Below are positions 2,785-17,296 of a DNA stretch of 20,051 bases, piece after piece. Position numbers and translations under genes: made by a program. Numbering within the stretch: the stretch's first letter is position 1; every line of letters begins with the position of its first letter. Below the pieces are notes generated by a model. That model did not search any database and was not told where the DNA came from. It saw only the letters and a program-made list of their open reading frames with translations. The stretch spans positions 1-20,051 of the IMG/VR virus record IMGVR_UViG_3300042520_000060; one strand, 5' to 3'. This DNA comes from a virus.

Positions 2785-3687
2785 TCACGCCGCAATCTGC
2801 GTCCAATTTGGGTTTTGCGTCGTACTAATATCCGTCCAAGTCGCGCTTTGCGCGTTGTTAATTCCTGTCCAATTCGCGTTCTGATTGGTATTAATCTGTC
2901 CCCAGATGTTGACTACCCCAACCGCGCCGGTTCCGGCTACCCCAGAGACTACAACATTTGAGCCTGACGATGTAGTGACTGTACCAACGGCTCCGTTAGC
3001 CGAAACACCCGTGACAAAAACCTTGATTTCAAGCCGTACATCGACCGTTCCAACTTCCCCTGTACCCGAGACTCCGATGACCGAGAGGTTCTGATCGGTG
3101 ACAACAAAAACTGTCCCAACCGCCCCGGTCGCAGCCACTCCGGTAACAGCAGCAACCGCTGCCGCTGCAACTAGGACATCCCCGACTTCGCCCGTAGCAG
3201 AAAGCCCGGTAACAGGAACAATAGCCGCTGCCTGTACCGTAACGGTGCCGACCGCTCCCGTCCCCTCAACGCCGGTAACGGCAAGGACTTGATCCGTTTT
3301 AACGAATACGGTGCCAACGGCACCCGAAGCCTCAACCCCGGTAACAACCGCAACTGCCGAGGCCGCAACGACGACATCCCCTAACTGCCCGGTGGCTTCA
3401 ACACCCGTGACGGAGATAACTTGGTCGGTAACGACAACAACTGTGCCAACGGCACCCGAAGCCTCAACGCCCGTAAGAAGGACATTGGCTACGCCAACAA
3501 CCGTGACCGACCCAATCTGGCCTGTGGCTTCAACGCCTGTAACGGGGATATTTACGGAGCCCGTGACAACAACAGATCCTACCGCACCCGTTGCAGTAAG
3601 ATTGCCAACACCTTCGCCCCAACCTTGTTCGCCCCAGCCTACGCCGGAAGCGTTCCAACCGTCGAAGGCGACTATGACGCCTGCCAC
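2785..3687 (-). CDS. Repeat-built phage structural protein (eleven 22-residue repeats)
   Basis: Not a family I can name. After a Trp/Gly-rich start (residues 1-28, including GWGEQGWGEG), a G-[AQE]-[VIL]-G core recurs at residues 34, 56, 78, 100, 122, 144, 166, 188, 210, 232 and 254, an exact 22-residue period. The consensus is roughly VTGVxATGxVGTVxVxxxxx. The tail (about 265-298) switches to three 11-residue units with Trp at 273, 284 and 295 (N-x-x-W-T-x-I). Such short, valine-rich repeats suggest a beta-solenoid or fibrous shaft. Lying directly before the fibre gene, it is probably a virion fibre or appendage protein. The start is GTG: an in-frame TAG lies three codons upstream, and AGGCAGGGG precedes it. 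Confidence 0.85.
   Translation of the reverse strand: MAGVIVAFDGWNASGVGWGEQGWGEGVGNLTATGAVGSVVVTGSVNIPVTGVEATGQIGSVTVVGVANVLLTGVEASGAVGTVVVVTDQVISVTGVEATGQLGDVVVAASAVAVVTGVEASGAVGTVFVKTDQVLAVTGVEGTGAVGTVTVQAAAIVPVTGLSATGEVGDVLVAAAAVAAVTGVAATGAVGTVFVVTDQNLSVIGVSGTGEVGTVDVRLEIKVFVTGVSANGAVGTVTTSSGSNVVVSGVAGTGAVGVVNIWGQINTNQNANWTGINNAQSATWTDISTTQNPNWTQIAA
2908..3597 (-). repeat. Tandem 66-bp coding repeats
   Basis: Eleven in-frame units of 66 bases encode the 22-residue repeats of the structural protein. Period and register are kept without insertion or deletion, although the bases have diverged, so the array is visible mainly at protein level. Confidence 0.85.
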
Positions 3688-4173: not shown

Positions 4174-4408
4174 AATGCTCTATAGCATTCATAAAACCGT
4201 TTTCAATCAATATGCGCCGCAGGTTCATCCGCTCGGATTCCTGTGCTTCCTTGAAGTACTGCGCCAGAACACGTTTAAGTTCTGAACGGTTATTAATGCG
4301 AAGAAGGCGATCAACAGCACGATCTGCCATCTCGTCTGGCGTAAATCCACGACTGTCCGTGGTAAACACCTTTACCGTACCAAGTTCTAATCCACCTTCA
4401 AAACTCAT
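4163..4408 (-). CDS. Small phage protein, unknown function
   Basis: An 81-residue protein starting MSFEGGLELGTVKVF. Residues 25-75 are predicted helical and charged (DEMADRAVDRLLRI, then SELKRVLAQYFKEAQESERM), giving a helical bundle look with no enzyme motif. Its ATG overlaps the TGA of the adaptor gene (ATGA, 4405-4408), and its stop lies just before the next gene, so it is translated within the same unit. It could be a chaperone or minor component for the adaptor encoded before it, but only the coupling supports that. I do not recognise a named family. Confidence 0.82.
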   Translation of the reverse strand: MSFEGGLELGTVKVFTTDSRGFTPDEMADRAVDRLLRINNRSELKRVLAQYFKEAQESERMNLRRILIENGFMNAIEHLGD

Positions 4409-5043
4409 GTGACCGGAATCCTCGCTTGTCCTGAACGGTACGCATCCTGACGATCCAGACCATCGCCCAGACGCTTCAATTGAGCAAGGGCTTCCTGATA
4501 CTTCTGCTCGTAGTACTGCATCATATCGGCTTCGCCCTTGAGATAAGTGTACGCCTCGCGGAGCGATCCGTAGAGCAACACGGTCTCAAAGTTGTCCCCA
4601 AGCCACGATGTTGAATTAGTAACAATAGAAACCGGGTAATAGTAGTAATGCAGTTCGGCCGTGTACGCAACGTCTGGGGTCGGCCCAAGAATCATGCTGG
4701 AGTTATTCCAGATAGCGTAGTACTTAGGCTTCCCATACGAGTTGGGTGGTGGATACGCAGCGCGGATGTAGTTCACATCCTTGTTTAGTAGGTACTCGTA
4801 CTCACCCGTAGTCGGGTCAATCACCGCAAGCGAGAACGTCGAGAGCCAATCAGACGGCAGGGAGAAATACTGAAATTGCGCCGTCATCGTACCGGTGACG
4901 TTCTTACGAATCGCCGGGATCTGGACTGAGTTATAAATCCGCTCTTCAGCCAACTGCACAAACGTAGGGATATTCGCTACAAAAGACGTTTCCGTGCTTT
5001 CGCAGTAATCCTGAATCAACGTTGAGAGTTGACTGTAGTTCAC
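4405..5043 (-). CDS. Head-tail adaptor/connector protein (T7 gp11 / P22 gp4 / SU10 adaptor type)
   Basis: A 212-residue protein starting MNYSQLSTLIQDYCES. The layout fits phage adaptor proteins that form the ring below the portal: an N-terminal helix, a segment TFVQLAEERIYNSVQIP (27-43), a beta-rich middle (about 50-140, with LPSDWLSTFSLAVID, PKYYAIWNNSSMILGPTPD and ELHYYYYP), and C-terminal helices NFETVLLYGSLREAYTYLKG and YYEQKYQEALAQLKRL. In related short-tailed phages such proteins join portal to tail nozzle. The match is by pattern, without a search. The start overlaps the stop of the upstream small gene (ATGA). A second adaptor-like protein lies at 5812-6537. Confidence 0.82.
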   Translation of the reverse strand: MNYSQLSTLIQDYCESTETSFVANIPTFVQLAEERIYNSVQIPAIRKNVTGTMTAQFQYFSLPSDWLSTFSLAVIDPTTGEYEYLLNKDVNYIRAAYPPPNSYGKPKYYAIWNNSSMILGPTPDVAYTAELHYYYYPVSIVTNSTSWLGDNFETVLLYGSLREAYTYLKGEADMMQYYEQKYQEALAQLKRLGDGLDRQDAYRSGQARIPVT

Positions 5044-6555: not shown

Positions 6556-7692
6556 CTATTCAAAATTAAGGCCGAAATCAGAAGGTGAGCGATAAGATTT
6601 AAGTGCGTCATCACTATAATCTATATTCTTCTCTTTTAAAAAGTTCATTACTGTATTCGGATCAGTAGCACCTTCCCCTACTCTGTTATACCCTTTATTG
6701 GCTGCAAGAGTGTACATAGCCGAATTTCTTTGGGCGTCGGTTATTGGGGTGTTTTTTAATTCTTCATATCTAGCGGTTGTGTTTTTATTCCTTTCTAAAC
6801 GGCTTTCATAATTTTTCAATTCTTCTGGATTTATGTATTCATTGTCGCCAAATTGGACATCTGCAGTGCCATACGCACCATTAGCAAACCGGTTATAGTA
6901 GTACGGATTCTTTACCTTGCCAGCATTAGGGTCCACCCACTTAGGGCGAGGTTGCACATCAGGCTGGAGAAGCGGCTGATTACCCACCCAGCCCGGACTT
7001 TCCCCCGCCCAGCCCGGACTTCCCCCCGCCCACGCATACTTAAATGGGTCCGACGACGGCTGGTTCGCTCCCTCATCAGGAATAAACATCTGCCTAGTCC
7101 TGTCGTCGAGGCGAACATCTGTAAGCATAGAACGCCCGACATTAAAGTCCGGGTTCAATTTCATGCCCGGAGGTGGGGCGTTGGGGTCTCTATTTCCCCC
7201 TTGAACAGCGCGCAACTGGCCGAGCAGTGCAGCAATACCGCCGCCCATACCACCGAAGCCACCCATCATTGGGTTAAAGCCGCCGAAACCGCCTAAGCCG
7301 CCCATCATGGGGTTAAAGCCGCCCATACCGCCGAAGCCGCCATAACCGCCCATCATGGGGTTAAAGCCGCCCATACCGCCGAAGCCGCCATAACCGCCCA
7401 TCATGGGGTTAAAGCCGCCCATACCACCGAAGCCGCCTAAGCCGCCCATCATGGGGTTAAAGCCGCCCATACCGCCAAAGCCGCCATAACCGCCCATCAT
7501 GGGGTTAAAGCCACCCATACCACCGAAGCCGCCAAAGCCGCTGACATTAAACGGCGCACCATAGGCACCGCCAAAACCACCCATGCTGCCAAAACCGCCT
7601 AGTCCGCCACCCATTCTGTTGCCTATCTGGGGCGCAGAGACGGCCGGAGAGGGTTTCGGCTGTAAGCCTTGTTGGGTAGATACGTTGTTCAT
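6556..7692 (-). CDS. Gly-rich repeat protein, unknown
   Basis: A 378-residue protein. Residues 27-60 are Gly/Phe/Met-rich; from about 53 to 152 a 16-residue unit GGFGGMGGFNPMMGG[YL] repeats, with NPMM at 63, 79, 95, 111, 127 and 140 (the last unit is three residues short). Then follow a short helix (IAALLGQLRAVQGG), two SPGWxG units (about 228-240), a Pro/Trp linker, and a Tyr/Asn-rich C-terminus with a helical end (ELKNYESRLERNKNTTARYEEL..., KSYRSPSDFGLNFE). No enzyme motif, signal peptide or membrane segment is seen. Composition resembles self-associating Gly/aromatic proteins, so an assembly or flexible virion protein is possible but unproven. GAAGAAG lies before the ATG. Confidence 0.82.
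   Translation of the reverse strand: MNNVSTQQGLQPKPSPAVSAPQIGNRMGGGLGGFGSMGGFGGAYGAPFNVSGFGGFGGMGGFNPMMGGYGGFGGMGGFNPMMGGLGGFGGMGGFNPMMGGYGGFGGMGGFNPMMGGYGGFGGMGGFNPMMGGLGGFGGFNPMMGGFGGMGGGIAALLGQLRAVQGGNRDPNAPPPGMKLNPDFNVGRSMLTDVRLDDRTRQMFIPDEGANQPSSDPFKYAWAGGSPGWAGESPGWVGNQPLLQPDVQPRPKWVDPNAGKVKNPYYYNRFANGAYGTADVQFGDNEYINPEELKNYESRLERNKNTTARYEELKNTPITDAQRNSAMYTLAANKGYNRVGEGATDPNTVMNFLKEKNIDYSDDALKSYRSPSDFGLNFE
7237..7536 (-). repeat. 48-bp tandem coding repeats
   Basis: Six in-frame units, five of 48 bases and a last one shortened by nine bases, encode the GGFGGMGGFNPMMGG repeats. Units are nearly identical in DNA (the plus-strand string cccatcatggggttaaagcc recurs), unlike the diverged 66-base repeats further left, so this array is recent or kept uniform by recombination. 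Confidence 0.92.
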
Positions 7693-8195: not shown

Positions 8196-8488
8196 CCACG
8201 ATACCCGCCGCCTTTGGCCTTGTACTGCTTCGCCAGCAACTGAGCCTTTCTTGCGCTCCACTGCCCTGCTGCAGTACCCTGTACGGCCCGGCCCTTGATT
8301 GACTCAAAGAGCCGCTTACGCATACCGGGCTTCGTATAATTTCCCGCCTCGTTCACGCGGCTCTCGCCTCCCTTGGCGTAGGTTTTTATCGGTTTCCCAG
8401 TCCCAATTACGGGTTTTTCGTCCCCCCGGCGTTTTGCTCGGGGGACTTTTTTGGGATTGATATCACCCATGCCTCGGGACGGTAGCAT
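8192..8488 (-). CDS. Small basic phage protein with GQWSARKAQLLA motif (DUF5872-like)
   Basis: A 98-residue basic protein. The N-terminus carries INPKKVPRAKRRGDEKPVIG and TGKPIKTYAKGG; the C-terminus is YTKPGMRKRLFESIKGRAV followed by GQWSARKAQLLAKQYKAKGGGY. The last block is one I recall as DUF5872, found in phage and viral metagenome proteins with no known activity. The start used is ATG 8488, overlapping the TAA of the gene before (TAATG); ATG 8470 is a possible alternative, giving MGDINPKK as N-terminus. Its TGA overlaps the next ATG, so the two partial domains are co-translated and may assemble together. Confidence 0.82.
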   Translation of the reverse strand: MLPSRGMGDINPKKVPRAKRRGDEKPVIGTGKPIKTYAKGGESRVNEAGNYTKPGMRKRLFESIKGRAVQGTAAGQWSARKAQLLAKQYKAKGGGYRG

Positions 8489-8976
8489 TAGACAAACTTC
8501 CCTCTGGTTTTACCTTTCTTAGCGATGCCATCACCGCGACTTGCGGAGGACTTTATTGTACCCCCTTTAGCCTTCTTCTCTTCGGCAGACTTAACCACAT
8601 ATGGTTTGCCCCGCCACAAGAAAGAACCACCTTCGCCCAGTTCTTTACGCCTAATCCCATAGGCTTTCTTAAACGGCATTTCGTCAAAACTTTCAGGCTC
8701 TGGAATAATGTACGGCCCTGCCGCTTTTACATTGCCCTTGTACGGAGATCTGCCGCGTTCTTCAATCTTACGCTCGCGGAGCATTTCCTTTACTTCGCGC
8801 TCCCATTCTGGATCACGCTTCATATCTTTTACGTCTTGAAGTCGCCCACCTTCCGTAAACTTCTTAACTCGCGGCTTAGGCGGTAACGGCAAACGGGGCT
8901 TCTTGATAGCAGATGCGCCAAAACGCGGCATCTTCTTTTTAAACATCCCCGCCGTGTATTTAGGAATGCGATCCAT
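8488..8976 (-). CDS. Basic phage protein with DGIAKKGKTRGKFV tail
   Basis: A 162-residue, strongly basic protein starting MDRIPKYTAGMFKKKMPRFG. Pro/Lys-rich to about 40 (LPLPPKPRVKKFTEGG), a charged helix follows (KDMKRDPEWEREVKEMLRERKIEERG, about 50-75), then GGSFLWRGKPYVVKSAEEKK (about 116-135), a motif I recall from small proteins of uncultured aquatic phages. It ends SSASRGDGIAKKGKTRGKFV, the tail shared with the next two genes upstream. No named function. There is no clear ribosome site before ATG 8976, so a start at the second Met (residue 11) is possible. Confidence 0.82.
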   Translation of the reverse strand: MDRIPKYTAGMFKKKMPRFGASAIKKPRLPLPPKPRVKKFTEGGRLQDVKDMKRDPEWEREVKEMLRERKIEERGRSPYKGNVKAAGPYIIPEPESFDEMPFKKAYGIRRKELGEGGSFLWRGKPYVVKSAEEKKAKGGTIKSSASRGDGIAKKGKTRGKFV

Positions 8977-8985
8977 AATGGAGTC

Positions 8986-9237
8986 TTAAACAAACTTCCC
9001 GCGAGTCTTACCCTTTTTAGCAATCCCGTCAGCACGCTTGGAGGCAGAGGACTTCACAGAGCCGCCCTTTTTCATGCCGGACATGCTACGTCGCTGCGTC
9101 TTTTCGTACGCTTCGCGCATCTTCTCAGCCATATCTTCTTGGCGGGCCTGTTCAAGTGCCTCACGTTCTTTTCGTGCTGCCGTAGCCTGTGCGGAGGACC
9201 GACGCGGCCCTTGCGGACCTTTTGACATAAAGTTCAT
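8986..9237 (-). CDS. Small basic phage protein with DGIAKKGKTRGKFV tail
   Basis: I place the start at ATG 9237, which overlaps the TAA of the gene before (TAATG) and has GGGAAG upstream; a GTG six bases earlier is also open but less likely. This gives 83 residues. The middle (about 15-50) is one charged helix rich in Ala, Arg and Glu (AARKEREALEQARQEDMAEK); the end is KGGSVKSSASKRADGIAKKG followed by KTRGKFV. The tail is almost identical to that of the next gene and close to that of the previous one, whereas the N-terminal parts differ. Confidence 0.82.
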   Translation of the reverse strand: MNFMSKGPQGPRRSSAQATAARKEREALEQARQEDMAEKMREAYEKTQRRSMSGMKKGGSVKSSASKRADGIAKKGKTRGKFV

Positions 9238-9470
9238 TAGCACTTCCCGCCCATCATCATTTTGACGATCTTGCCCTTAGTCTTGCCCTTCTTGGCAATA
9301 CCGTCAGCGCGGCTGGAAGCAGAACCGCCCTTGGAGTAGGCCATACCGCCCATCCGCATGTTCTTCATGCCTTTCATTTCGGCCTCTTCGTGCCGAACCA
9401 TGGACTTCGGGGCGCCCTTCTTTTTCATAAAGGACACTTCTTTACGCATCATCGCCTTTGACTCTTTCAT
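9237..9470 (-). CDS. Small Met/Lys-rich phage protein with DGIAKKGKTKGKIV motif
   Basis: A 77-residue protein. The N-terminal half reads MKESKAMMRKEVSFMKKKGA and PKSMVRHEEAEMKGMKNMRM, a helical, Met-rich pattern I recall from small proteins of uncultured aquatic phages. Residues 47-69 carry KGGSASSRADGIAKKGKTKG plus KIV, the tail motif of its two downstream neighbours; here a short MMMGGKC end follows. No named function. The ribosome site is TTAGGAG with nine bases before the ATG, and the 36-base gap before it holds a 14-base palindrome. Confidence 0.82.
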   Translation of the reverse strand: MKESKAMMRKEVSFMKKKGAPKSMVRHEEAEMKGMKNMRMGGMAYSKGGSASSRADGIAKKGKTKGKIVKMMMGGKC

Positions 9471-10387: not shown

Positions 10388-11038
10388 TCAGTCGGGGCTG
10401 TCTGGCAAGCGGATTTTTCCCGATGACTCTATATACGCCGTGACTTGGGGGGTGTCAACAAGTTGGTTTGACTTTCTCAAATTCTCTTCCCGCGTGATAA
10501 CTCGCAGGTTCCAAGGCACGTGCAGCCCACATACAAACTCAGATCGAAGCGGCACGATGTGGTCTACGACGTACTGCTCTCCTGTAGTTTTCGTCATAGT
10601 TATGGCTATTTGATACAACTGCCGTATTTCACTTTTCTGTTTGCGGGAGAGCCAACGTGGAGTTGCTTGTCTATGTTTACGCCGCCTAGCCTTAGTATCC
10701 GCACGGATTTGCAGCAAATTATTGCGTTTCCACGCATTACGATATTCGCGTAACACTGCTTTGGGGCGGGTAGCCGCTGCTTGGATCACCTTTTCACGGT
10801 TAGCGGTGTACCAGTCGTTTTTTCTGTCTTTAACGTCTTCTCGTTTGTTGTATTGCCGAAAGTATTCGGCACGGGCGACGTTGCCCTTTTCCCATTCAAT
10901 CTTTAGGCACTCCACGCAAGCCCCTTTGGTCTTACGCGGAGCGATGTGGCCGTGCGTACACGGCTCCCCTGTGAAGTAATACTTGGCACCTTTGGCTTTA
11001 GCCTCGGCGCGGGATTTAGGCAGCGTTGAAGTATCCAT
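10388..11038 (-). CDS. Free-standing HNH homing-type endonuclease
   Basis: A 216-residue protein. The C-terminal HNH core runs VVDHIVPLRSEFVCGLHVPW and NLRVITREENLRKSN: D159-H160 of the first strand, the middle Asn at 177, and the closing N186/N191 region. The N-terminal part has Cys27, His29/His31 and CVEC at 41-44, a likely zinc knuckle for DNA binding, joined by a long basic helical middle (about 45-130). Family members nick or cut DNA and often spread as homing genes between phage genes. Here it sits just after the capsid gene's terminator and before small head genes, and is not inside an intron. GGAG precedes ATG at six bases. Confidence 0.9.
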   Translation of the reverse strand: MDTSTLPKSRAEAKAKGAKYYFTGEPCTHGHIAPRKTKGACVECLKIEWEKGNVARAEYFRQYNKREDVKDRKNDWYTANREKVIQAAATRPKAVLREYRNAWKRNNLLQIRADTKARRRKHRQATPRWLSRKQKSEIRQLYQIAITMTKTTGEQYVVDHIVPLRSEFVCGLHVPWNLRVITREENLRKSNQLVDTPQVTAYIESSGKIRLPDSPD

Positions 11039-13212: not shown

Positions 13213-14187
13213 TTAGTTAGCCTCCAGTTTCATAAGTTCTTTTGCGTACTGTTCATTGCTCAGCCCCAATTTCTTGGCGATAGCAACTTGAGTCGGTGTC
13301 AGGCGGACCTGACGAGGCGCGGTTCCCCGCGTTACCGGAGCCACTACATTTGCTGGCTTTGTGCGAACAGGTTTTTCAACCTGCCTCGTTTGAGGCTTAT
13401 CGTCGTCCTCTTCAGCATCCTCAAATGCCTCTGGATAACGCTTCCTCATGGTTTCATCAACTCTACGATAATACTCGTCTGAATTCGGATCAACTCCGCT
13501 CCGGACCAGTTTTTCATGCAGGCCAAGGGCAAGGGCGGTCATTTCCTCGTCCTCACCAAACCAAGTATTTTTCTCTTGCCAAGATTTCGCTTTAGGGTCT
13601 ACCTTTGGCTGAGAAAACTCTTGGGGCACCTGAGCCTGTTGTGCCTGTTCTACTCTACCTTCGTTCTGTTGTAAAGAAGGTTTTACACGAGAGATAGTCT
13701 GGATTTTAAGTTTAGCGTCTGTAAGAAGTTCTTGGGCTTCAGCAATCTTTTCCGAATCCCCGGCTTCATAAGCCTGCTTTAAGCGTTCTTTAGCCGAACT
13801 AAGGTCAAAATTGGCATACTTCTGGGCTTCCTTAATAAACGCCTGCTCATTCTGACCTAAGCGTTCCCGAAGTTGTTTTGCCTCCTGATCCCGCATTTGG
13901 GCGAAACGCAAGGCTTCCTCACGTTCACGTAAAGCCCGTTCTTTTTCCCGGCGCTCGTCGTGCCAAACACGTTTCATCTGGGAGAGGCGCTTTTTTACCT
14001 TCTCCGAATACTCATCCAAATCCTCGTTTTCAAGTTCCTCTACTGTACGTTTAGACAGTGGTTTACGGCCCCGATCTTCTTCAGGGGTGTCGTCTTCAAT
14101 CTTGACCTCAAATTCAGGTTCAGGAGCCGCTTTAACTTCAACCTCCTGTTCGTCAGGAAATTTAAACTCTTCTCGCTCAATAGCCAT
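13213..14187 (-). CDS. Capsid assembly scaffolding protein
   Basis: A 324-residue, very charged protein of the kind that fills the prohead and guides capsid assembly before leaving. The first 60 residues are acidic (EEFKFPDEQEVEVKAAPEPE, then IEDDTPEEDRG). Residues about 55-165 form a long charged helix or coiled coil (KRLSQMKRVWHDERREKERA, REREEALRFAQMRDQEAKQL). A Gln-rich linker (about 175-200) and a region SWQEKNTWFGEDEEMTALAL to YPEAFEDAEEDDD follow, then a basic C-terminus with TPTQVAIAKKLGLSNEQYAK. A short basic helix-turn at the C-terminus is where scaffolds bind the shell in P22-type phages. It lies between the chaperonin and capsid genes; AGGAG precedes ATG. Confidence 0.86.
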   Translation of the reverse strand: MAIEREEFKFPDEQEVEVKAAPEPEFEVKIEDDTPEEDRGRKPLSKRTVEELENEDLDEYSEKVKKRLSQMKRVWHDERREKERALREREEALRFAQMRDQEAKQLRERLGQNEQAFIKEAQKYANFDLSSAKERLKQAYEAGDSEKIAEAQELLTDAKLKIQTISRVKPSLQQNEGRVEQAQQAQVPQEFSQPKVDPKAKSWQEKNTWFGEDEEMTALALGLHEKLVRSGVDPNSDEYYRRVDETMRKRYPEAFEDAEEDDDKPQTRQVEKPVRTKPANVVAPVTRGTAPRQVRLTPTQVAIAKKLGLSNEQYAKELMKLEAN

Positions 14188-14196
14188 GGTTTACTC

Positions 14197-14574
14197 CTAT
14201 GCGCGACGGATTCCACGGGGGTCTTGAACCACCGCTTCTACCGTGTCGTCGTTAATGATGCGGAACTCCCTACCGTGGATGACCACGCGGGTGCCCGAGT
14301 ACGGACGGGTTAGAACAAAGTCGCCTTCCTTGCACCATGGGCCGGTGGGGAAACGTTCCTTGTCTGCATAGCAAAGGTCACCCATCTTGACGACGAACAG
14401 GACAACGGTTGTCTGCTCCTCGGCACGAATGGTGTTGTCAGCCTTGATAATGCCGCCCTCAAACTCTTCCTCTACATGCGGGACTGCACAAAGCAGCCGA
14501 TAGCCTTTCGGCTCTGGCAGGAGTTTGGCCTTAGCGGCCTCTTCCTGAGTTTTCTCTACGTTGATACTGCTCAC
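14197..14574 (-). CDS. GroES-like co-chaperonin
   Basis: A 125-residue protein of the Cpn10/GroES fold, which caps the host GroEL cage during folding; T4 gp31 is the known phage example, used for the capsid protein. After a charged 20-residue leader, PKGYRLLCAVPHVEEE (22-37) matches the first strand, and EGGIIKAD (39-46) sits where GroES has its GroEL-binding mobile loop GGIVLTG. Then come the roof and barrel strands VVLFVVKMGDLCYADKERFP, CKEGDFVLTRPYSGTRVVIH, and the end strand EFRIINDDTVEAVV. Its place between portal and scaffold genes points to folding of the capsid protein. The loop residue Lys44 replaces the usual Leu. The start overlaps the upstream stop (ATGA). Confidence 0.87.
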   Translation of the reverse strand: MSSINVEKTQEEAAKAKLLPEPKGYRLLCAVPHVEEEFEGGIIKADNTIRAEEQTTVVLFVVKMGDLCYADKERFPTGPWCKEGDFVLTRPYSGTRVVIHGREFRIINDDTVEAVVQDPRGIRRA

Positions 14575-14759
14575 TCTTCCTCCATCCTTTTTGCAAGGTC
14601 TTTAATGTGGATTACTGCGAGATCAAGACCTTGTAATACCCCGCAGAGTCTTTTGTACTCACCTTCATCAAGTTTGCCCTGAATCAGATTTTCCACGATC
14701 GATGTGCGCTCCTCCTTGAGTTTAGTTTCAAGGTACTCCAGAGCGTTTGAATAACCCAT
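14571..14759 (-). CDS. Small helical phage protein, unknown
   Basis: A 62-residue protein beginning MGYSNALEYLETKLKEERTS; the remaining sequence is helical and charged (IVENLIQGKLDEGEYKRLCG, then LQGLDLAVIHIKDLAKRMEE), a short helical hairpin. It has TAATG overlap with the portal gene and ATGA overlap with the co-chaperonin gene, so it is translated between them. Proteins of this size at the portal-scaffold junction are common in T7-like and pelagic phages; a role in portal or prohead assembly is a guess from context. Confidence 0.8.
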   Translation of the reverse strand: MGYSNALEYLETKLKEERTSIVENLIQGKLDEGEYKRLCGVLQGLDLAVIHIKDLAKRMEEE

Positions 14760-17296
14760 TACTCACTCCTTTTTGGCGGCGCCATCCGACGCTGTTGTGC
14801 CTGATCTTTAGCCTTGGCGATATCAACGCCAAGTCGGACTCCTTCAGTCTCCATCCGATTCGATTCTTGCGCCTTGTGCTTCTCAATATCCGCACCAAGC
14901 CGTGCTGCATCAAGTTGCTGACGACCAGAGATCTCCGCTTCGCGCAACCGAAGTTCATCTTCCTTAGCAGCAGCGTCCATAAGAATCTGCTGTTCTTTAA
15001 GTTGGAGTTCTTTCTGCTTAGCCTGCATCTCCATCTGCACCTGCATCTGCTTGGTCTGGGCCTGCATCTGCTTGATCTGGAGGTCCATCTGCTGCAACTG
15101 CATGAGCGGATCTTGTGCCTGCTGCGCCATCTGCTGAGCCTGTGCTTCAGCCTGATCCTTCTGAAGAAGTCGTGCAGCGGCAAGGGCGCTAACCTGAGCG
15201 ATTTGAACCTCAAGTTCAGGCTGCAAATCGTACTGCTCGTTGTCGTCTTGCGGCAGCGGAGGAAGCGCCACACCAAGTTGTTTCTCAATATCCCGACGAT
15301 ATTGATAGGCTATGTGCTCCATAATATGCGCCTGAAGCGATGCAGTAATCTGCTGCGCCATCGGATTCTGCCCAATGACAGCCGCCATTTTGGGGTCTTG
15401 CCCAAGCGCCATGTGAACCTGAATATGGGCCTCGTGGTCTTGGTAAATAAACGCCTTGAGCGGCTTGCCCATCATTGCGTCCATGTTTTCAGTTACAGGA
15501 TCGCGGGGCTTTTGATCATCCGGCATTGGGACAATCTTGTCGGCGTTACGAACACCTAAAACCTCAATCATCTGCCGGTGCAAGTACGGCAGGTTATATA
15601 ACTGTGGTGCCCCTTGAGCCAACTGCATAACGGCTTGGTACTGCACGACCTTCTGCGACATCGTTGCCGCGTTCGGGTCTGAGACCGGGATAACATCCAC
15701 ATCGTCGTAGTCAGACTTCTTAGCCTTACGGCTACCGACTTCCGGTTCGTACGAATACTCATCCGGGGTGTTGTCACGGATAATGGCAGCGAGAAGTTTG
15801 AACTCCTGCTTCATCGCGTAATACACGCGAGCCTGCACCGCCGACATTACCTTCAAAACGCGCTCTAGGATGGCTAGGGTAGTACCTACCGGCGCTTGGT
15901 TCGACATATCGGAGATCTTGAGATCCGACACCGCAGCGAAGCGACGGCCATCCTCGACCACCTTGTCCATGAGCATGGCAAGGGTCTGGCTCGGCTCCTT
16001 GTACGGCAGCGGCAGGATGTTGTCGCGTACCGCACCCGAAGGTACGTCTACGTCTCGCCACTCGCCGGGGGCGATGGGGGTGTCGTCTCCCTTGATACGG
16101 AGACCACGTGATTTGAGACCACCCGGAAGGTTGCTAAGAGTTCCTGCGTCGATAAGTTGGCGAAGCAGGGAGGTTGCCGCTTTGGAGTGCCCGCCGATAA
16201 GGTGGATAAGTCCGAAATAATAAAAGCCAAAGCCGGGGATATATCCGTAATGGACAAAGTGCTGCCGCTTTGATTTGAGTTTGTCATCTTCTTGCCAGTT
16301 GCGGCGTATCGCCAGAACTGTCCCCGTCCCCTTCTCAATCGTCACCACGTAGGGTAGTGCGATGCCTGTCTCATTGTTGTCCTTATCGACATCGGGATAC
16401 CCCGGTAGGTCGATGTTCACGTGCATCTCAAGCAACTGGAACCGATCATCCATGCTGGCTGAGAAGCCTTGATCCTCTGCCTTCTGCTTCTCTACCTCGT
16501 CCATCGTGCGAATCGGATCGCCAAGGTCAACATCGCGATAGAAGCCTGCGTACTGCAGTCTGATCAGTTCGTTCTTGGTCTTACGCATGCGATGCGTAAC
16601 ACGGTCTGCGGTCTCAAGATTCGCCGCGCCATACGGAACTACAATATCTTCCGCCGGGATATAGATCGCTGTCTGCCGATCAAGCGATGGGTCAAAGTAG
16701 ACCTTCTTGAACGCGTTACCTGACAGAGCCAAACTCAGCAACATGCGCTCATGCTCTGGGCGGTATTCCTTCATCACCTCGGTCAATTGGTAGTTCATGT
16801 CATCAGCGACACGCACAGCCGAGTCTTTCTTCTCTGGAGTCTCCTTACCAACGATCTTGGCTTTGACCGGCCCTGCGGCAGGGAAGGTCTCCATGATGGT
16901 CTCGGACTGGAACTTGACGGCTGACTCCATCAAGAGCGGGTGGTATAAACCACAGGCACCGGGCCAAGGCTCAGTACGCTCTTCGTAGCGAATGCCCAGA
17001 ATCTTCAAGCCTTTGACGTAGGTATCCAGCCAGTCTTTACGGCTAGAAAGGTCTTGTTCATACTGTCCGATTAAATCCCCGGCCAAACTCTGCAACTCGC
17101 CCTCGCTCATAAACTCCGCGAGGTTAGAGTCAAAGTCCTCAGCGCGAGGCTCATCCTTCATCAATTCTATAACGGCCCCGTCTACGCCAATCGATACGCT
17201 CTCGGGGTCTTCGATCATAATCTCAATCGGGGCTTCATCAGCAGCGAGGGCTTCAAGACCCATCGGAGCCTGCATTAAACTTTTATCGACGGCCAT
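14759..17296 (-). CDS. Portal protein (P22/SU10-like)
   Basis: An 845-residue portal, the twelve-fold ring through which DNA enters the head and to which the adaptors bind. An acidic N-terminus (20-60) leads into LIGQYEQDLSSRKDWLDTYV and an EPWPGACGLYHPLLMESAVK segment (109-128), then KFQSETIMETFPAAGPVKAK, the typical clip and stem entry. Then DWL/DVDV-type strands, the central LIHLIGGHSKAATSLLRQLI helix (about 363-382) and LKISDMSNQAPVGTTLAILE near 459-478, the crown-proximal helix of P22-like portals. From about 703 to 835 runs a Gln/Met-rich coiled coil, unusually long and probably forming the barrel. AGGAG precedes ATG; stop overlaps the next gene. Confidence 0.93.
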   Translation of the reverse strand: MAVDKSLMQAPMGLEALAADEAPIEIMIEDPESVSIGVDGAVIELMKDEPRAEDFDSNLAEFMSEGELQSLAGDLIGQYEQDLSSRKDWLDTYVKGLKILGIRYEERTEPWPGACGLYHPLLMESAVKFQSETIMETFPAAGPVKAKIVGKETPEKKDSAVRVADDMNYQLTEVMKEYRPEHERMLLSLALSGNAFKKVYFDPSLDRQTAIYIPAEDIVVPYGAANLETADRVTHRMRKTKNELIRLQYAGFYRDVDLGDPIRTMDEVEKQKAEDQGFSASMDDRFQLLEMHVNIDLPGYPDVDKDNNETGIALPYVVTIEKGTGTVLAIRRNWQEDDKLKSKRQHFVHYGYIPGFGFYYFGLIHLIGGHSKAATSLLRQLIDAGTLSNLPGGLKSRGLRIKGDDTPIAPGEWRDVDVPSGAVRDNILPLPYKEPSQTLAMLMDKVVEDGRRFAAVSDLKISDMSNQAPVGTTLAILERVLKVMSAVQARVYYAMKQEFKLLAAIIRDNTPDEYSYEPEVGSRKAKKSDYDDVDVIPVSDPNAATMSQKVVQYQAVMQLAQGAPQLYNLPYLHRQMIEVLGVRNADKIVPMPDDQKPRDPVTENMDAMMGKPLKAFIYQDHEAHIQVHMALGQDPKMAAVIGQNPMAQQITASLQAHIMEHIAYQYRRDIEKQLGVALPPLPQDDNEQYDLQPELEVQIAQVSALAAARLLQKDQAEAQAQQMAQQAQDPLMQLQQMDLQIKQMQAQTKQMQVQMEMQAKQKELQLKEQQILMDAAAKEDELRLREAEISGRQQLDAARLGADIEKHKAQESNRMETEGVRLGVDIAKAKDQAQQRRMAPPKRSE

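Follow-up and report, generated by a model that had tools for sequence, protein, structure and literature searches.

A phage Cpn10-fold protein with a lysine at a GroEL-contact position of its mobile loop

Does a co-chaperonin encoded among phage head genes still serve the host GroEL when one of the residues expected to grip it is charged? The window considered here, a stretch of 20,051 nucleotides from the viral record IMGVR_UViG_3300042520_000060 of IMG/VR, raises this question through a Cpn10/GroES-like protein whose mobile loop has a lysine where E. coli GroES has L27. Contact between GroEL and GroES shows high conservation, and in E. coli one substitution at L27 is enough to break it. Since the lysine is fixed at this position in the near clade of the window protein, a simple gp31-like service to host GroEL is an unsafe assumption without an assay. 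We hold it slightly better than an even bet that the protein is a genuine co-chaperonin of an SU10-related podovirus, which would act in head morphogenesis by capping host GroEL with a grip that has been weakened or re-routed.

A Cpn10 gene among the head genes

The gene starts with a GTG codon preceded by GGAGG (Table 1), and its product was matched to the Cpn10 family by several routes. The Pfam model PF00166 was only just passed (21.5 bits, the cut-off being 21.1; E 2.4e-4), while PHROG 3188, "co-chaperonin GroES", matched at E 1.2e-9 and a sequence search of the PDB found Thermus Cpn10 at E 2.5e-5. A profile of 81 sequences, the window protein included, retrieved ten PDB sequences whose names all denote Cpn10 types (best E 4.9e-10). 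The single-chain AlphaFold2 model (pLDDT 88.8, pTM 0.78) has the Cpn10 barrel, and the 16 PDB entries ranked highest by VIA-align are all Cpn10s (Z 7.3-10.0), the entries for T4 gp31 among them (Z 7.5 and 8.0). The rows that follow are oxidoreductases, from Z 6.4 down. Foldseek returned 27 chains at E <=0.001, every one a Cpn10. The GroES fold proposed in the initial annotation is thus borne out by the Pfam, PHROG, PDB profile and structure searches, and the structural comparison it had suggested places both GroES and gp31 among the closest matches.

Table 1. Coordinates of the co-chaperonin gene, its parts and its neighbours in the window
Feature	Position	Strand	Basis or remark
Portal protein	14759..17296	-	phrog_1216; SU10_portal just below its cut-off
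62-aa ORF	14571..14759	-	stop overlaps Cpn10 start by 4 bases
Cpn10/GroES-fold protein, 125 aa, GTG start	14197..14574	-	profile, PHROG, PDB and structure searches
N-terminal leader, residues 1-18	14521..14574	-	length comparison among relatives, and model
Mobile-loop region, residues 33-52 (HVEEEFEGGIIKADNTIRAE)	14419..14478	-	alignment with relatives
Codon AAG, K44, aligned with E. coli GroES L27	14443..14445	-	alignment
Next head-module ORF, scaffold by position only	13213..14187	-	phrog_28737, no known function
Major capsid protein, 302 aa	11151..12059	-	PF25209, phrog_371

The marginal Pfam score speaks for a chance resemblance to some other small beta-barrel, as does the failure of the same model in two of 14 records from relatives in which the gene is present. 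Against this, the profile, PHROG and structure searches all rank Cpn10s first, above other barrels, and in alignment A1, a set of 26 that includes the window protein, 25 members match PF00166 at E <=0.01. Homology to Cpn10 is therefore beyond chance, the fold assignment is sound, and a chance barrel is refuted for practical purposes, with next to no probability left to it. The bacterial proteins (E. coli GroES, Thermus and Mycobacterium Cpn10) resemble the window protein in their barrel fold and in where the loop lies. In structural alignments the window protein is 17-29% identical to solved bacterial Cpn10 chains, and the bacterial proteins differ in their loop flanks, in having isoleucine, leucine or valine as third tripeptide residue, and in having no long variable leader. 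The extra leader of about 20 residues that had been noted came to about 18-20 residues ahead of the barrel. It forms a low-confidence helix in the model (residues 6-17), and its length differs widely among relatives.

The gene had been placed between portal and scaffold genes. The head-gene context of this placement held up; the direct adjacency did not, since a 62-aa ORF lies between portal and Cpn10 genes, and neither did the scaffold label, which goes by position and look alone, PHROG 28737 being of no known function. Downstream of Cpn10 come this ORF, two further ORFs and then the capsid gene, and an adaptor ORF (4405-5043) matches SU10_adaptor well above its cut-off. The capsid protein had been called Mu gpT-like, which PF10124 supports (E 1.2e-8), though PF25209 (Phage_capsid_4) fits better (E 3.7e-15). 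A portal gene upstream and the next head ORF downstream occur together in 162 of 171 fetched relatives' loci; 157 of these loci left room on either side, and there the pair was seen in 155. The small upstream ORF recurs as well: of 84 relatives, 82 have an ORF of about 60-76 aa directly ahead of the Cpn10 start (phmmer E <=0.38; no match in L062 and L087), overlapping it in 78 and stopping just short in four. This set of 84 proteins leaves out L060 and L080, which have no start codon and are kept in the ORF-based set. The phmmer matches are weakest in the most distant phages, and the window's own 62-aa ORF has only weak family matches, below every cut-off. Because the small ORF overlaps the Cpn10 start, the arrangement suggests translational coupling.

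Phage GroES in this head-gene slot is already known. Homologues 29-55% identical to the window protein, annotated as GroES, are found in HTVC023P (Pelagibacter), Pag-Yong1 (Planktothrix), DSL-LC04, RW (Caulobacter) and CRP-901 (Roseobacter). In all five, as in the window, a small ORF directly precedes the GroES gene and three homologous ORFs separate that gene from the capsid gene. The portal comparison covered the five except CRP-901; HTVC023P, RW and DSL-LC04 differ from the window by two or three additional ORFs that separate the portal gene from the small ORF. Co-chaperonin GroES is listed among 13 core genes of HTVC023P-type pelagiphages (PMC9599517), and GroES is named in the genome figure of CRP-901 (PMC10149686). 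Among papers listed in a search on virion proteomics of relatives, one on a jumbo phage contains the term co-chaperonin GroES.

Distribution and conservation of the loop lysine

Escherichia coli GroES contacts GroEL through I25, V26 and L27; Ile and Leu predominate at positions 25 and 27, with Met at times (PMC5575113). The window loop reads G40-G41-I42-I43-K44, with G41-I42 equivalent to G24-I25, and thus contains the changed stretch GGIIKAD (residues 40-46) exactly as the initial annotation had it. Its contact tripeptide is I-I-K in place of the hydrophobic tripeptide usual in the Cpn10 family. That tripeptide is a usual trait lying outside the profile definition, so its lack leaves Cpn10 kinship intact; a non-hydrophobic third contact lowers the claim of ordinary GroEL binding. 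The register is secure, because G41 is present in 129 of 129 distinct close viral sequences and the alignment is gap-free through position 44.

Among the matches listed in two window-centred viral scans, position 44 is K in 128 and M in one of these 129 sequences, a count that describes the near clade and not all relatives, as the scans (with the window protein and with A1) cover the 80 loci nearest the window. Position 42 is I or L in all 129, and position 43 varies (I 80, L 26, V 17, A 3, F 2, Q 1). Lysine is absent from the HTVC027P-centred set (n = 75; L 57, F 9, I 8, M 1) and from 14 other phage Cpn10s, T4 gp31 included (L 8, I 5, V 1). It is equally absent from 75 sequences from bacterial genomes, three of them phage-like, which all have I, L or V: I 19 and L 4 of 23, I 31 and L 1 of 32, and L 11, I 8 and V 1 in 20 further genomic sequences. 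The last group consists of 17 sequences picked as lower-scoring bacterial GroES, added to balance the 30 bacterial GroES loci taken as best-scoring, and three distant phage-like hits. A genome_contigs group of 38 distinct rows (rows of the genome_contigs scan together with five loci found in the genome search) spans both loop types, with K 13, R 2, M 6, I 6, L 9, V 1 and one gap. Merging identical sequences took 285 ORF matches and the window to 269 rows. Among the named phages, HTVC023P, DSL-LC04, RW and CRP-901 have L at the third tripeptide position and Pag-Yong1 has R. The new element is not the gene but its loop, in which the near clade has fixed a lysine at the L27 position; among the titles and abstracts listed in full-text searches of open-access PMC papers, which do not take in subscription papers, none dealt with a charged contact tripeptide of phage GroES.

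Column 44 has an entropy of 0.07 bits in the near clade, against 1.5-3.0 for its loop neighbours 43, 47, 49 and 51. It ranks 25th of 100 core columns (residues 19-118), and is thus strict for the loop and not exceptional for the protein, many barrel columns being its equal. The codons mapped at this position in 73 sequences were AAA 43, AAG 29 and ATG 1. Compared with the window in 47 same-length relatives, dN is 0.003-0.23; dS is 0.085-3.5 in 45 of them, many near saturation, and was incomputable in two. The dN/dS ratio is below 0.2 in all 45 computable pairs, with the same reservation on saturated dS. The Cpn10 gene is under purifying selection, and the strict column, the use of both lysine codons and the low dN/dS together indicate that the lysine is maintained and not drifting. 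A quick tree built without the loop columns (81 columns; 63 of 110 forks open) gives five changes between K/R and hydrophobic residues, and these are clustered (none of 500 shuffles was as low), with a branch of support 97 putting 23 bacterial GroES on one side. The wider clade counts against a strict lysine reading: the window's tree group includes M in L055, L235, L236, L241 and L286, R in L082, L238 and L240, and a single L in L246, on a long branch.

It is conceivable, if rather improbable, that the protein is an ordinary gp31-like lid for host GroEL in which lysine is tolerated without special consequence, either because the aliphatic part of the side chain suffices or because other loop residues compensate. 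Fold and gene neighbourhood are indeed the same as in canonical-loop phages, and all five named phages carry the GroES annotation. Neutral tolerance, however, leaves unexplained both the near-total fixation of lysine with either codon and its absence from the 75 + 75 + 14 other sequences.

In the model the loop lies where a Cpn10 has it. Its confidence is high (block pLDDT 87-90), but this was rejected as proof of order, as a control model of L146, an HTVC027P-type protein with a leucine tripeptide, gave loop blocks of 81-85, also without a disordered stretch. A helix after the tripeptide (residues 46-54) was likewise dropped as a feature of the lysine clade; the control has the same helix at 76-84.

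Possible consequences for GroEL binding and head assembly

Mutational work on E. coli GroES offers a scale for such a change. I25A, I25D, L27A and L27D abolish the interaction with GroEL and V26D does not; the alanine changes I25A and L27A lower affinity more than 1000-fold (PMC5575113). The tolerance of the near clade, strict at 42, loose at 43 and strict at 44, echoes this map of I25D and L27D versus V26D. A loop that still docks would be expected to look like this, strict at positions 41 and 42 and loose at 43. On the other hand, since L27A alone costs E. coli GroES more than 1000-fold in affinity, the lysine might abolish binding rather than tune it. On the sequence comparisons, GroEL binding is most likely retuned and probably weaker.

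We propose that the Cpn10, encoded alongside portal and capsid genes, serves head morphogenesis, most likely as a ring, presumably a heptamer, that would cap host GroEL during the folding of phage head proteins. The loop retains the conserved glycine and a hydrophobic residue for the first contact (G41-I42), and the fixed lysine as third contact should loosen or re-route its hold on GroEL. The lysine perhaps pairs, through a putative salt bridge, with an acidic GroEL residue beside the hydrophobic groove, and the outcome may be a faster-cycling or more selective lid.

The GroEL partners of the GroES loop are L234, L237 and V264 (PMC3514286). In the 48 of 60 loci in which a groove motif was found, position 234 is L or V and position 264 is V or L; the 60 include five phage-like loci where no GroEL is expected. 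The motif prescribed both L237 and E238, which makes it biased at those sites. An acidic residue inside the groove of some lineage was also considered and appeared in none of the 48 of 60 loci, with the same bias. Because the motif itself required L237 and E238, an acidic partner for the lysine is here proposed and not observed.

No phage GroEL came to light. As the initial annotation had stated, the window shows none: PF00118 had no match in the 20 kb record, nor in any of 14 relatives' records (18.6-78.8 kb, several of them fragments), although none of these 15 records is known to be complete. The same search matched in 14 of 14 control genomes. By the same method Cpn10 was found at E <=0.001 in 12 of the 14 relatives' records, six above the cut-off, the gene being present in all 14. 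An attempt to name the host from relatives binned in MAGs was given up, as 37 genome_contigs loci were binned with many phyla. One such genome, the Maricaulis MAG of locus L225, has 11 Cpn10 matches, ten far weaker than the chromosomal one, which suggests that it holds several binned phage contigs.

Alternatively, the protein may have left GroEL altogether, its fold now serving head assembly as a ring or platform, for instance with the portal, the scaffold or the 62-aa protein, and the lysine marking lost binding or a new partner. We regard this as unlikely, although less so than the unaltered lid. It would account for a lysine fixed just where alanine or aspartate abolishes GroEL binding, for the place of the gene in a head operon, overlapping a conserved small ORF, and for leaders that vary among relatives. 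It sits poorly with the fixation of G41 and I/L42 while 43 drifts, as expected of a loop docking in a GroEL-like groove, with sister phages of the same downstream order and related capsid that keep the canonical tripeptide, and with several wider-clade members carrying M, at times used by GroES too. More broadly, we put at about even the chance that a large clade carries a GroES with a charged contact, be it a low-affinity lid with an electrostatic latch or a GroEL-free head-assembly ring working with the 62-aa protein.

Mixed rings with host GroES would offer fewer strong grips per ring and quicker release. Linked GroES rings with two mutated modules did take part in folding by single-ring GroEL (PMC5575113), but with only 17-29% identity to solved bacterial Cpn10 chains such mixing is very improbable.

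A changed capsid substrate is an unlikely cause of the lysine, to judge from the sequences, because the window's capsid protein stays 66% and 64% identical to those of two leucine-loop phages, DSL-LC04 and HTVC023P (Pag-Yong1 74%, CRP-901 55%, RW 42%). The corresponding Cpn10 identities are 42%, 46%, 55%, 29% and 30%. T4 gp31 is, like the window protein, phage-encoded and of Cpn10 fold. The loop change had been likened to that of gp31, which is not borne out as put: gp31 keeps a hydrophobic tripeptide (G-L-I-I, hence L-I-I) where the third contact of the window is lysine. It also differs in gene neighbourhood and in its larger capsid substrate, and it is without roof loops; the idea that it enlarges the folding cage concerns a capsid protein of about 56 kDa (PMC6318259). 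In the window protein the roof stretch, modelled as coil only, has no deletion relative to Thermus Cpn10 in sequence. A gp31-like cage enlargement as the reason for the gene is not favoured, given a capsid protein of 302 aa and a roof stretch without a deletion.

Nature thus offers a comparison between the lysine clade and its leucine sister phages, which have a related capsid and gene order. From it one can learn what tunes the affinity of a co-chaperonin, whether phages can retarget or abandon GroEL, and why GroES stays a core gene in such phages.

Other ORFs of the window

Several further ORFs on the minus strand deserve mention. Beside the capsid gene, ORF 10388-11038 has by eye the look of an HNH endonuclease, with no Pfam match. 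Three consecutive small ORFs (8488-8976, 8986-9243 and 9237-9470) share a near-identical stretch near their ends, SAS..(A)DGIAKKGKTRGK, and the two of them searched against Pfam had no match. Repeats without a Pfam match also mark ORF 6556-7692, with Gly/Phe/Met-rich tandem repeats (GGYGGFGGMGGFNPMM), and ORF 2785-3687, with VTGVEATGxxGxVxV-like repeats. The small Cys-rich ORF 18820-19011 matches DUF6171 below the cut-off and phrog_13558 at E 1.7e-12. ORF 191-2773 encodes a probable tail protein of 860 aa with a C-terminal Peptidase_S74 intramolecular chaperone domain (E 1.5e-7).
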